27,212 nt of DNA from a virus. The stretch's first letter is position 1; the number at the start of each line of letters is the position of its first letter. The position numbers and the translations under genes were made by a program. The notes under the pieces are model-generated. The model ran no database searches, was not told the origin of the DNA, and was given only the letters and a program-made list of their open reading frames with translations. Positions 17,400 to 25,148 of the stretch are shown piece by piece. The DNA lies in IMG/VR virus record IMGVR_UViG_3300031772_000232, positions 1 through 27,212 of that record; one strand, written 5' to 3'.

Positions 17400-17413
17400 C
17401 CGTTAAATTCAAT

Positions 17414-17487
17414 GCCTGGTTAGCTCAGAGGCAGAGCGCCTGTTTCATAAGCAGGGTCACGCGAGGGTTCGAGTCCCTCACCCGGCA
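17414..17487 (+). tRNA. tRNA-Met(CAT) (or Ile2)
   Basis: Acceptor GCCTGGT/ACCCGGC, anticodon stem CCTGT/GCAGG with loop TTCATAA (CAT), T stem GAGGG/CCCTC, A73. A CAT anticodon can also be tRNA-Ile2 if C34 is modified; an Ile(TAT) gene is present at 26185. Confidence 0.88.
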
Positions 17488-17597
17488 CCCTAAGGGCCAT
17501 CTAGGAGCCCCCACGTTTAATCAAATCAATTGGTTGAGGGGTTACCCATCACCATTTTATTGAACAATTCCACGGGCCTAGGATACTTTTGGGCCCC

Positions 17598-18200
17598 ATG
17601 CTAAAGTCTAATCGAACTAAACGATTCATTGCTGTTGCACTGGTTTTGCTCAGTACCCTGACCGTCGCTTCGGAGGTACAAGGTCGTCAGTTGGGCGGAC
17701 CTGTCCAGTTGCCTGAAAAACGACAGCCCAAGACGTTGACGCCGTTGTCAGACGTGCAGTTGCTGCGCATTCTACGGGATTCTCATGTGGAAGTCTTTGG
17801 AATTGAACCCTCGATAAGAAGGCTAGCAATGGCCTGGGCCCAAGTGGCGCTGGAAAATGGACAAGGCAAGTTTCTGTGGAATCACAACCTAGGAAACATC
17901 GGGCCCGGATCATCCCAACAAGAATACTACTCACATTCTAGTTTCACTACGTACCGTGCCTTTGAAGGATTTTTGCTGGGTGGCCAAGCTTACTGGCAAA
18001 CGATCGAGCGCTCTACGGTGATTTTGAGACAATTTGAGAGCGGCGACCCGCGAGGCGTGGCAACATCGTTGAAAAATTCAGGTTACTACGGGGCTGACTG
18101 TGAAACATACGGTACCGGAATGGTAGGATTGTACTGGCACGCCATCCAGAAGGTGATTCCGGAGGAGCGCCAGGAGGCTTCCCGTGTCGGACAAGATTGA
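17598..18200 (+). CDS. Exported lysozyme/glucosaminidase-like cell-wall hydrolase, 200 aa
   Basis: A signal sequence (basic start, then FIAVALVLLSTLTVASEVQG, ~9-28) precedes a lysozyme-superfamily domain. Key stretches are RRLAMAWAQVALENGQGKFLWNHNLGNIG (~78-106), where the Glu in ALENG fits the catalytic acid of glucosaminidase/FlgJ-type hydrolases. YRAFEGFLLGGQAYWQTI and VATSLKNSGYYGADCETYGTGMVGLYWHAI (~150-190) complete the fold. It likely cleaves peptidoglycan during lysis or entry. TACTTT ends 8 bases before the ATG. The gene's 3' end overlaps the original NADAR start at 18184. Confidence 0.8.
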   Translation: MLKSNRTKRFIAVALVLLSTLTVASEVQGRQLGGPVQLPEKRQPKTLTPLSDVQLLRILRDSHVEVFGIEPSIRRLAMAWAQVALENGQGKFLWNHNLGNIGPGSSQQEYYSHSSFTTYRAFEGFLLGGQAYWQTIERSTVILRQFESGDPRGVATSLKNSGYYGADCETYGTGMVGLYWHAIQKVIPEERQEASRVGQD

Positions 18201-18225
18201 TCGTTTCATCGGCGAACATGCTTGA
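18184..18225 (+). pseudogene. Orphan 5' end of the NADAR gene, cut off by the HNH insertion
   Basis: GTG 18184, with a perfect AGGAGG six bases upstream (18172-18177), encodes MSDKIDRFIGEHA and then stops at TGA 18223-18225. The intact NADAR gene downstream begins MIKKIDRFVGEHA and continues FLSNFYPS. The 13-codon fragment is therefore the original start of that gene, left behind when the HNH cassette inserted after the Ala codon. The two copies differ at many synonymous positions. Confidence 0.8.
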
Positions 18226-18238
18226 TAATCTTATCAAG
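18221..18238 (+). repeat. Palindrome at the HNH insertion junction
   Basis: CTTGATAA (18221-18228) and TTATCAAG (18231-18238) are perfect inverted repeats with a 2-base centre. It sits exactly where the HNH cassette begins. It could be a terminator-like hairpin, an operator, or part of the endonuclease recognition region. Confidence 0.55.
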
Positions 18239-18246
18239 CGTAAACA

Positions 18247-18258
18247 TACTTATCATGA
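18247..18258 (+). promoter_or_regulatory. -10-only promoter for the HNH gene
   Basis: TACTTA (18247-18252) ends exactly 6 bases before ATG 18259. No Shine-Dalgarno. The same TACTTA-6-ATG layout precedes the gene at 24120. Confidence 0.5.
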
Positions 18259-18864
18259 ATGCCAAATCAACACAAACCAAGTAAATGGTCTCAAGACGCC
18301 AATCTAACAGAAAAAATTCAGGAAGCATTGCGAAAGTGTGGCGGCGGATCTACGGCGGCTGCAGAACTATTGGGAATGTCTTCAATGACTTTTTACCGAT
18401 ATTGTTCTAAGTTGGGCATCAGAAAACGACGGCCCGGTGGTCGTGGAACCTCTTGTATGAAACCTAGTGTGCCGCTACAAGATATTTTGTCAGGAGCATC
18501 TCCTTGCGGTTCAACGGTCCTTCTTCATAAATTGTTTAAGGAAGATCTTAAACAAGAATTGTGTGAAGAGTGTGGCATCGGTTCCACGTGGAATAATCGT
18601 CGATTGACTCTTCAACTTCACCACAAGAATGGTGACCATAAAAATAATGGTCTAGAAAATCTTCAAGTATTGTGTCCCAATTGTCATACACAAACAAATA
18701 ACTGGGGTGGGAGACGCTGTCGGATCAATAATCTTGATGACGAAACGCTCCGGCAACAACTGTTGATTGCAAATCAAAATGGAAAAACACTTCACTGCGC
18801 GGCATCGACGATGGGAATTTCTGCTTCACATTTTCGTAAACTCCTGATTAAATTTGAACTCTGA
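18259..18864 (+). CDS. HNH homing endonuclease with HTH domains
   Basis: The central HNH domain carries CEECG, LQLHHKNGDHKNNGLENLQVLC and PNCHTQTNNWGGR (~108-155), including the catalytic HH and Asn/His plus two Cys pairs for zinc. An N-terminal HTH (GGSTAAAELLGMSSMTFYRYCSKLGI, ~24-52) and a C-terminal HTH (KTLHCAASTMGISASHFRKLLIKF) give DNA specificity. Such free-standing enzymes cut a homologous gene in competing phages and are copied into the break. The gene is visibly more AT-rich than its neighbours, pointing to transfer. Its stop overlaps the rebuilt NADAR start (TGATG), and it sits inside the ancestral NADAR gene. Confidence 0.9.
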   Translation: MPNQHKPSKWSQDANLTEKIQEALRKCGGGSTAAAELLGMSSMTFYRYCSKLGIRKRRPGGRGTSCMKPSVPLQDILSGASPCGSTVLLHKLFKEDLKQELCEECGIGSTWNNRRLTLQLHHKNGDHKNNGLENLQVLCPNCHTQTNNWGGRRCRINNLDDETLRQQLLIANQNGKTLHCAASTMGISASHFRKLLIKFEL

Positions 18865-19331
18865 TGATTAAGAAAATCGATCGATTTGTAGGTGAACATG
18901 CATTTCTTAGCAATTTTTATCCGTCATCTATTTGGATCGATGGAAGGCAATATCAAACTTGTGAACACGCCTACCAGGCCTCCAAGACGTTGGTCGACAG
19001 TGAACACGAGGTGATCCGCGGAGCCAAGACCGCGGGCGAGGCCAAGAAGCTAGGCAGGTCTGTCAACCTAAGACGTGACTGGGAAAGTGTCAAAGTCGAC
19101 TTGATGCGTAAGTTCGTCCGGCTGAAATTCGAGAATCCGTTGCTCCGTGAGTTGTTGCTGGCCACAGGCGATGCCGAGCTGATCGAGGGAAATCACTGGA
19201 ACGACACGTGCTGGGGCGTGTGTCGCGGGACGGGACAAAATTGGTTGGGGAAGATACTTCAAGAAGTCCGTGAGGGAATCACTGTTGAAACCTTGACTGA
19301 CTCGACGGTGCAACGCGCAGAACTCGAGTGA
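18864..19331 (+). CDS. NADAR-family N-glycosidase (YbiA-like), rebuilt 5' end
   Basis: Signature segments are GEHAFLSNFYPSSIWIDGRQYQTCEHAYQASKTL (~9-42), AKKLGRSVNLRRDW, and EGNHWNDTCWGVCRGTGQNWLGKIL (~111-135). NADAR/YbiA proteins cleave N-glycosidic bonds in riboflavin-pathway intermediates or ADP-ribosylated substrates, and phage versions may counter ADP-ribosylation or NAD-based defence. The first ~100 bases are AT-rich like the adjacent HNH gene, and base use then returns to the local style near 18965-18985. This suggests a co-conversion tract brought in with the endonuclease. All family motifs look intact, so the protein is probably functional. Confidence 0.9.
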   Translation: MIKKIDRFVGEHAFLSNFYPSSIWIDGRQYQTCEHAYQASKTLVDSEHEVIRGAKTAGEAKKLGRSVNLRRDWESVKVDLMRKFVRLKFENPLLRELLLATGDAELIEGNHWNDTCWGVCRGTGQNWLGKILQEVREGITVETLTDSTVQRAELE

Positions 19332-19344
19332 TATGATTGAACCA
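19332..19344 (+). promoter_or_regulatory. -10-only promoter for the GNAT-like gene
   Basis: TATGAT (19332-19337), preceded by TGA in extended -10 position, ends 7 bases before ATG 19345. The block GTGATATGATTGAAC is identical to that at 9456-9470. Confidence 0.6.
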
Positions 19345-19746
19345 ATGCACCTCCCTCAGGGATACACCTATTCGGTGAAACCAACGGGCACCGCGACTGA
19401 TTACACGGTGACGCTGTTTTATGAGAGGAAAATCATCGGTACCGTGCGGGTGTCTGAGGCCACAGCAAAGTGCGCTGGCAGGTCAGTCCGTGTTCACGAG
19501 ACGCATTGTAGCCCGGGTCTTGATCCGACGCATCGTAACAAGGGTCTCGGAATTTTCATGTACGCGGTGGCCATCGAACACGGCCTCCGTCAGGGCTTCA
19601 CAGTCGTCTCCTCATGGAACCCCAGCGCCCTGGCACAACGCGTCTGGCGCTCGCAGAGGCTATCTGAAAGGTTCATGGTCAACAAATTTGCCAAACGTTG
19701 GTGGACAAGTCCACCACGAGTCATTGAAGAAGAGGTCATCAAGTAG
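19345..19746 (+). CDS. GNAT-like acetyltransferase, 133 aa
   Basis: ATG 19345 is chosen from the -10 box spacing; ATG 19333 lies inside that box. Residues ~50-90 (HCSPGLDPTHRNKGLGIFMYAVAIEHGLRQGFTVV) match GNAT motif A, with RNKGLG as the acetyl-CoA pyrophosphate-binding loop. SSWNPSALAQRVWRSQ follows as the motif B region. The N-terminal strands are short. The substrate is unknown; phage GNATs may modify host proteins, tRNA or toxins. It lies directly before the second tRNA block. Confidence 0.7.
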   Translation: MHLPQGYTYSVKPTGTATDYTVTLFYERKIIGTVRVSEATAKCAGRSVRVHETHCSPGLDPTHRNKGLGIFMYAVAIEHGLRQGFTVVSSWNPSALAQRVWRSQRLSERFMVNKFAKRWWTSPPRVIEEEVIK

Positions 19747-20435: not shown

Positions 20436-20466
20436 ACAGTAACGTATCACTTGTTTATGAACAGTG

Positions 20467-20478
20467 TACAGTGTGATC
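20467..20478 (+). promoter_or_regulatory. -10-only promoter for the EXORDIUM-like gene
   Basis: TACAGT (20467-20472) ends exactly 6 bases before ATG 20479. No ribosome site. This spacing is the reason to prefer ATG 20479 over GTG 20464. Confidence 0.55.
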
Positions 20479-21615
20479 ATGTCACGATCACTTCAAGGCC
20501 TCGTCACCGCGTTCTGTGTTGCGTTGTTGCTATTTGTCGCATGCGCAGGTGGTGAACTCGATGCTAACCCAATGATTCCTACATCAGCTTCGTTTGTTGC
20601 TGGGGCTGCTGGCAGTCCTTCTGCCGCGGCCGGAAAAAGTGGTTCTGCTGGAATTGCGGGAAAGGTGGGTTCTGCAGGACAAGGTGGTGCTGGTAAAACT
20701 GGTACCGGCGGAACGGGAGGATTTCCGGTGACAAACTACTGTTCCTATGATTCAGGTCAAGAATCGCAGTGCGACGGACTACAAAAAGGTTACGGACCGG
20801 TGAAGTACTCCGGAGGCCGCGTCATGACACAGCCAATCAACGTCTATCATGTTTGGTACGGTGACTGGGAGGGAAATACTGCGCCTGAGATTCTCGAACA
20901 TCTGATCAAGAATTTCGGCGAATCAAAATATCACGAGATCAACACAACGTACTACCAAGAACTCGCTCATCGTCATGATGGGAATATTAAGACAGAATCG
21001 TCCCGTGAGTATGTCAGTTCAAAAGTCACATTTGTTACGAACGTCTACATAGGGTATCCGTACGGCACTAGTCTCACCGACAAGAACATTCGTGATCTGA
21101 TCTTCAACATGATTGATTCTGGTGTTCTTCCCAAGGATGAAAATAGTACATTTTTTGTTTTGACGTCGAAGGACGTTGAAAGCCTGTTCATTCAAGGATA
21201 TCCATATGAATTCTGCGGTGATTTTTGTGGCTGGCACTATTTCGCCAAGAAAGACGACGTCACCATCAAATATGCATTCATCGGTGATCCAGATCGATGC
21301 CCTGACGCCTGCGGCACACGAAATGCATCAAAAAAGATGGGAATCAATAACAGCCCAAACAACAACTGGGCCGCCGATGACATGGCTAGCGTCCTCGTCC
21401 ATGAGTTGTCTGAGATGGTCACTGATCCTGAGATCAATGCCTGGCGCGATGATTCATCATATGAAACGTCTGACAAGTGCGCTTGGATTTTCGGAAGCAC
21501 ATACTGCACAGCCTCGGGCGCCCGGGCCAACGTCAAGTTCGGTGCCCGCGATTTCCTGGTCCAAGAAAATTGGGTCAATGATTCCAAGTGCTTGCATTGC
21601 GCAATGAAATTGTGA
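20479..21615 (+). CDS. Exported EXORDIUM/PHI-1-like lipoprotein with Gly/Ala-rich linker, 378 aa
   Basis: A lipoprotein signal (hydrophobic LVTAFCVALLLFVAC, lipobox Cys22) precedes a low-complexity Gly/Ala/Ser/Thr linker (~40-85) of the kind common in Myxococcota lipoproteins. The main domain matches the phosphate-induced protein 1/EXORDIUM family: INVYHVWYGDWEGN (~123-136), FCGDFCGWHYFAKK, YAFIGDPDRCPDACG, and LVHELSEMVTDPEINAWRDDSSYETSDKCAW from residue ~306. The HELSE...D element resembles a metal-protease-like His/Glu motif conserved in the family. The biochemical role is not established; plant members promote growth and some bacterial ones are secreted. Finding one in a phage is unexpected, and it may change the host surface after infection. 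Confidence 0.82.
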   Translation: MSRSLQGLVTAFCVALLLFVACAGGELDANPMIPTSASFVAGAAGSPSAAAGKSGSAGIAGKVGSAGQGGAGKTGTGGTGGFPVTNYCSYDSGQESQCDGLQKGYGPVKYSGGRVMTQPINVYHVWYGDWEGNTAPEILEHLIKNFGESKYHEINTTYYQELAHRHDGNIKTESSREYVSSKVTFVTNVYIGYPYGTSLTDKNIRDLIFNMIDSGVLPKDENSTFFVLTSKDVESLFIQGYPYEFCGDFCGWHYFAKKDDVTIKYAFIGDPDRCPDACGTRNASKKMGINNSPNNNWAADDMASVLVHELSEMVTDPEINAWRDDSSYETSDKCAWIFGSTYCTASGARANVKFGARDFLVQENWVNDSKCLHCAMKL

Positions 21616-24748: not shown

Positions 24749-24823
24749 GCAGCCGTAGTTCAGTGGTAGAACGCTGCGTTCCCAACGCAGATGTCGCGGG
24801 ATCGTGACCCGCCGGCTGCTCCA
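24749..24823 (+). tRNA. tRNA-Gly(CCC)
   Basis: Acceptor GCAGCCG/CGGCTGC, anticodon stem CTGCG/CGCAG with loop TTCCCAA (CCC), T stem GCGGG/CCCGC with unusual loop ATCGTGA, encoded TCCA. Confidence 0.9.
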
Positions 24824-24824
24824 C

Positions 24825-25148
24825 ATGTCACAAGAAAAGAAACAAGTCCGTGATGACTTTCGCAGTGCTACGTTTGCCCGCGACAAGTACCACTGTCGCG
24901 GGTGTGGTACCAAGAAGGCCGATTATCTCAGATTTCTCGATGCTCACCACATCACTGATAGAAACCTGATGCCTCACGGGGGTTACGTCAAAGAAAACGG
25001 CATCTCACTGTGTCCCCTGTGTCACGAGAAGGCCGAAGTCTTTCACTCAACCGGAACAGCGATTTCGGGTTTTGCACCCGAAGACTTGTACAAGATGATT
25101 GACTCGTCGTACGATTCAGCAGTCAAGGCTTCCGAGAAACTGAAGTGA
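24825..25148 (+). CDS. HNH endonuclease, 107 aa
   Basis: The HNH fold is compact: FARDKYHCRGCG (~17-28), FLDAHHITDRNLMPHGGYVKENGISLCPLCHEKAE (~38-73), with zinc Cys pairs CRGC and CPLC and the catalytic AHH. ATG 24825 follows the tRNA by one base; earlier in-frame starts lie inside the tRNA. The gene may be a second free-standing homing endonuclease targeting this tRNA region, or a repair nuclease. It overlaps the next gene in a GTGA junction. Confidence 0.85.
   Translation: MSQEKKQVRDDFRSATFARDKYHCRGCGTKKADYLRFLDAHHITDRNLMPHGGYVKENGISLCPLCHEKAEVFHSTGTAISGFAPEDLYKMIDSSYDSAVKASEKLK

Follow-up and report, generated by a model that had tools for sequence, protein, structure and literature searches.

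The lysozyme-HNH-NADAR locus

The window analysed here is the whole of IMG/VR record IMGVR_UViG_3300031772_000232, 27,212 bases of DNA from an uncultured virus that carry 33 tRNA genes and are probably a piece of a larger phage. A tRNA-Met gene (17413-17490) is followed by genes for a lysozyme-like protein, an HNH protein, a NADAR protein and a GNAT acetyltransferase, and then by a tRNA-Leu gene (19755); the features in between are listed in Table 1.

Table 1. Features of the locus, in window coordinates
Feature	Position	Strand	Remark
Lysozyme-like gene	17598..18200	+	Adjoins or overlaps NADAR in relatives
AGGAGG, ribosome-binding site of the native NADAR start	18172..18177	+	6/6 match
Displaced native NADAR 5' end, 13 codons and TGA	18184..18225	+	Resembles the L002 NADAR start
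Inverted repeat / RNA hairpin over the left junction	18218..18241	+	10-bp stem, -11.3 kcal/mol
HNH endonuclease gene, helix-turn-helix segments at both ends	18259..18864	+	PHROG, Pfam
Replacement NADAR 5' end, AT-rich foreign tract	18864..18965	+	GC3; nucleotide identity compared with L002
Native remainder of NADAR	18966..19331	+	75% nucleotide identity to L002; GNAT next, as in L002
GNAT acetyltransferase gene	19333..19746	+	PF00583 at its cut-off; neighbour conserved

The lysozyme-like protein matches no Pfam or PHROG family, and its label is therefore taken from the earlier note on this DNA and is unconfirmed. Exact patterns retrieved no relatives of the gene from IMG/VR, nor were any found in GenBank phages, and relatives were located via NADAR loci: the protein is 46% identical over 156 amino acids to the product of the gene that adjoins NADAR in the related phage L003, and similar genes precede NADAR in eight other phages. 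Downstream, GNAT follows NADAR in L002 and L054/L062 as well. The NADAR gene is complete (18864-19331), its product containing the PF08719 domain over most of its length (residues 11-139, 6.2e-27, 95 bits) and having PDB relatives in 2b3w (YbiA) and 8bau.

The HNH gene is intact, with its own start and stop codons. Its protein matches PHROG HNH families (3e-22 and 1e-20) and, in Pfam, HTH_8 above and HTH_23 just below the respective cut-off, while the HNH domain (PF01844) scores 19.7 bits against a cut-off of 21.4. The protein nonetheless keeps CEEC, LHH, NL and CPNCH, the metal-binding and active-site positions, and by these features the gene belongs to the HNH endonuclease family. It is free-standing, outside any intron or intein. 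A group I intron reading of the window was rejected, since an Rfam scan of the window returned tRNA only and no intron, and NADAR has its own start and a complete frame. As exact peptide patterns found no close relatives of the HNH protein in IMG/VR, a family alignment was used. The protein is only ~30–45% identical to most relatives.

Two other features of the window were recorded. The product of 20464-21615 carries the Pfam domain 'phosphate-induced protein 1' (1e-25) and is 37% identical to a relative encoded close to NADAR in L003, and a second HNH gene, of other HNH families, adjoins tRNA-Gly at 24804-25148.

A displaced NADAR start upstream of the HNH gene

Overlapping the end of the lysozyme-like gene by 17 nt is a short frame with the peptide MSDKIDRFIGEHA, whose codons are GTG TCG GAC AAG ATT GAT CGT TTC ATC GGC GAA CAT GCT TGA. 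Its GTG (18184) lies at a six-base spacing from AGGAGG, a perfect Shine-Dalgarno match, and its TGA occupies 18223-18225. Such a start, short peptide and stop had been described in the earlier note, and all are present after small coordinate corrections. The note had further claimed that this stub and the start of the NADAR gene encode, in 13 codons each, nearly the same peptide with many synonymous differences. This is borne out: counting the start, three codons are identical, six synonymous and four different, so that 25/39 bases match and 10/13 residues are identical. In a comparison of the stub peptide with all frames of the window, the second-best match scored 49 and the third 21, and shuffling the window in blocks six times gave no score above 26. 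The likeness is not due to chance.

Which of the two starts is the resident one can be judged from L002, whose NADAR gene, the closest among the relatives in its 3' part, begins with GTG and MSAKIDRFINEFA. The stub shares 9/12 amino acids and 24/39 nucleotides with this start, the replacement 5' end 7/12 and 18/39. As the L002 start is nearer to the stub, we read the stub as native and the 5' end of the present NADAR gene as foreign. The stub has a GC content of 0.49, which is ordinary composition, and joining the flanks without the insert yields a single open NADAR frame. At the left joint itself, no clear homology was seen. The palindrome that spans it is the sole one of its kind in the window; its hairpin reaches z = -3.4 when a 47-nt piece is folded but -0.4, which is not significant, when 126 nt are folded. 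A terminator was looked for at this hairpin and none was found.

The NADAR gene is a hybrid

The HNH gene and the first ~100 bases of NADAR had been described as AT-rich, with base use returning to normal thereafter. Our measurements agree, GC and GC3 being 0.42 and 0.33 in the HNH gene, 0.33 and 0.24 in the first 99 bases of NADAR, and 0.56 and 0.70 beyond them. The change point in GC3 lies at codon 34 (position 18966), with a likelihood ratio of 24.2 that was matched in 0 of 20,000 permutations; among 14 other genes of the window, the highest ratio was 11.0. Nucleotide identity shifts too: it falls from 0.75 in the 3' part to 0.52 in the 5' part of the gene against L002 and from 0.70 to 0.52 against L003, and rises toward the 5' part against the AT-rich L025/L027 (0.54 to 0.66). 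Across 85 NADAR relatives, the match of the GC-rich ones is much better in the 3' than in the 5' part, and that of the AT-rich ones shows the opposite trend; GC3 correlates at -0.53 with 5'-part identity and at +0.72 with identity over the rest. Since composition feeds into identity, this shift is not fully independent of the GC3 result. A foreign tract beside the gene, as left by co-conversion around homing endonuclease genes, thus extends to NADAR codon 34, and both the change point and the identity shift support the earlier proposal of co-conversion from a foreign donor. By these sequence comparisons, NADAR reads as a chimera of a foreign 5' end and a native remainder. A search for the donor with the foreign segment gave nothing.

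A Shine-Dalgarno sequence is missing before the HNH start and before the restored NADAR start alike. The HNH stop and the NADAR ATG share the letters TGATG, and translation of NADAR probably now relies on stop/start coupling to the HNH gene. In T4-type phages, hairpins and coupling occur at endonuclease starts (PMC2988022). The recoded NADAR start may, in addition, resist the nuclease.

Empty sites in related phages

A lysozyme-like gene and a NADAR gene adjoin or overlap without an HNH gene in about nine distinct records (L003, L016, L019, L021, L023, L034, which equals L036, L037, L043 and L051). The exact NADAR start is ambiguous in several, including L003 and L016; those with a clear start have overlaps of 14, 17 or 20 nt, all in phase with the 17-nt overlap of the window. 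This uninterrupted overlap is what the earlier note had predicted for relatives lacking the HNH gene. In the junctions inspected, the lysozyme frame continues directly into NADAR and no separate stub is present. The locus therefore shows presence and absence at one site among related genomes, a mark of homing endonuclease genes, with nine phages empty; a second occupied copy of the lysozyme-HNH-NADAR site was not found among the relatives. Taken together, empty sites, stub and chimera support the view that the HNH gene invaded NADAR and supplied it with a new 5' end.

In L002, a possible decayed HNH gene (L002:3508-3732) lies in the interval between tRNA-Arg and tRNA-Leu, ~1.3 kb upstream of the uninterrupted NADAR gene.

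Relatives of the HNH gene at tRNA genes

Among named genes, those closest to the window HNH gene are free-standing HNH genes from the tRNA clusters of phages, T5 hegA for example, and 81 of the 89 HNH loci examined have a tRNA within 400 nt. Many of these genes are directly preceded by a tRNA 5' half, the break commonly falling at the anticodon loop. Two arrangements recur. In the first, the HNH gene sits in an intron-like insertion in a tRNA gene, mostly at the anticodon loop of tRNA-Leu: ARAGORN reports a split tRNA-Leu in L126, L158 and L197, the last with an Rfam group I intron at 1870-2069, and L120, L121 and L189 also belong to this set. In the second, a tRNA gene is broken into two halves, their acceptor ends pairing 7/7, and the space between them is taken up by the HNH gene together with a complete tRNA. 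Naming each locus by its complete tRNA, a systematic search yielded L104 (Leu), L110 (Tyr), L133 (Val; identity of the broken tRNA uncertain), L148 (Val) and L175 (Tyr), and L132 and L224 were judged by eye to have the same arrangement. Rfam found no group I intron in any of these loci.

Nine loci have matching 5' and 3' tRNA halves on the two sides of the HNH gene, where mismatched loci lead one to expect 0.11, and five of the nine also contain a complete tRNA; this count is a corrected and not a blind one, its limits having been adjusted after two earlier counts missed loci through upstream limits that were too tight or a change in tRNA calling. L131, L168 and L170, where a complete tRNA accompanies a 5' half but no matching 3' half is present, perhaps contain a truncated neighbour and were left uncounted.

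With tRNAs masked, 205 distinct HNH loci were compared, and none but the window gave a clear case in a protein gene. In a first comparison of upstream and downstream peptides (89 loci), high scores came from translated tRNA, and the scores that exceeded the window's after masking were low-complexity, GC-rich matches.

The T4-like phage Pu-Krd-SF5 (L098) offers a close comparison. Of tRNA-Gln, only the first nine bases remain here; from the tenth on, the HNH gene has taken its place and ends just before an intact tRNA-Leu, whereas U115, Maryam and W143 (L180, L181, L184), at ~94–98% identity, have the empty arrangement. As in the window, the left joint truncates and the right joint is clean, but no gene is restored.

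A model for the insertion

We conclude that an HNH segment entered NADAR and put a foreign 5' end in place of the native one, and propose that the likely driver was a break made by the HNH protein and repaired one-sidedly; the account as a whole we hold at a probability of about three in four. The resident order would have been lysozyme-NADAR with a 17-nt overlap, into which a homing-type HNH gene from a more AT-rich phage would have inserted after NADAR codon 13. The HNH protein would have broken NADAR, and the end of the stub would mark either the cut site or the point reached by trimming of the end. On the right, homologous recombination between the incoming NADAR 5' end and the resident gene would have taken place in the conserved EHAYQA region (~18965), giving a hybrid NADAR of ~34 foreign and ~120 native codons; on the left, the HNH segment would have been joined illegitimately, leaving the gene unrestored and the 13-codon stub in place. 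One-sided illegitimate repair of breaks is documented for T4 introns (PMC2988022). We also count in favour of this model the two unlike joints of Pu-Krd-SF5 and the fact that HNH relatives elsewhere break tRNA genes and adjoin a replacement, although the tRNA cases differ from the NADAR case in carrying a whole gene and keeping a 3' stub, and in the details of their joints. Counting against it are that the searches yielded neither a donor nor another occupied site and that the window HNH is distant from most of its relatives.

Alternatively, the nuclease may have been uninvolved, with illegitimate recombination with an AT-rich relative moving the HNH gene and the NADAR 5' end as part of a passive mosaic exchange. 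The resulting DNA would look alike, and a left joint without clear homology fits such an event. However, the inserted cargo is little beyond an intact HNH gene, and its relatives lie repeatedly where tRNA genes are broken, in many cases at the anticodon loop, and we regard passive exchange as improbable, though the most serious competitor. Homing, on the other hand, normally copies an existing arrangement together with its flanks (PMC2988022), so that the donor might already have had stub, HNH and NADAR in this order, two-sided homing having copied them and the formative event being older and elsewhere. Against this inheritance speak the ordinary GC content of the stub, its resemblance to L002, which is closer than that of the replacement, and the lack of an occupied site among the relatives found, and we consider it distinctly less probable still. 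For a single uncultured 27-kb record, a metagenome assembly artefact joining two phages also has to be weighed, but its two joints would have to restore the gene order of relatives, and a repeat search revealed no long identical stretch at the joints, which leaves it very improbable. Least credible of all is a tandem duplication of NADAR with most of the first copy deleted and the HNH gene gained between the copies, which would explain why one strand has two similar 5' ends, but not why the copies differ at 14/39 bases and in composition, nor why the second is chimeric within the gene.

Relation to known systems

It has long been asked how a homing endonuclease gene can first settle in a conserved gene and leave its host alive; the textbook answer is introns and inteins. 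The window suggests another, in which the element carries a replacement end and the displaced original is still adjacent. The tRNA relatives suggest that carrying a replacement is a habit of the family, and thus a route by which a selfish gene enters new genes without harm to the host. In its general form, namely that the family enters genes intron-free and carries a replacement, be it a whole tRNA or the 5' end of a protein gene, with the intron-borne members representing an alternative solution, we give this idea roughly even odds. Family members from T4-like phages of E. coli would allow laboratory tests of it.

The nearest parallel is provided by mobile ORFs of fungal mitochondria, found in Allomyces atp6 and in Glomus atp6, atp9, cox2 and nad3 (PMC3630166). 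There as here, a free-standing endonuclease gene sits in a protein gene that has become a hybrid with a foreign end, and the displaced native end lies adjacent. In the fungal cases, however, which are mitochondrial and mostly of the LAGLIDADG type, the 3' (C-terminal) end is replaced and the native one displaced downstream, whereas in the phage window, with its HNH enzyme, it is the 5' end that has been exchanged, and the native one lies displaced upstream. Enzymes of the T5 HegA / F-TflIV type, among the nearest named relatives, share the helix-turn-helix and HNH segments with the window protein, but the latter is distant in sequence, has a C-terminal extension with a second helix-turn-helix and is encoded within a protein gene. 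T4 mobA and Aeh1 mobE are likewise HNH genes inserted in phage protein genes, yet they leave the gene in pieces, whose separate polypeptides assemble (PMC2988022), while the window gene is restored as one. Compared with group I introns carrying HNH genes, as in the intron-like tRNA-Leu insertions of some family members, restoration here is by replacement DNA and not by splicing. In the part of the literature that we covered, there was no report of 5'-end replacement in phages or of an HNH gene and a tRNA lodged together in a broken tRNA gene.

Two further observations concern the HNH loci of other phages. A bacterial-type RNase P RNA (112 bits) lies in the phage tRNA cluster of L110 (L110:1573-1869). 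In loci L095-L264, the exact T4 late-promoter sequence TATAAATA occurs within the 70 nt upstream of the HNH start in 34 of 116 genes, against 1.4 expected by shuffling.
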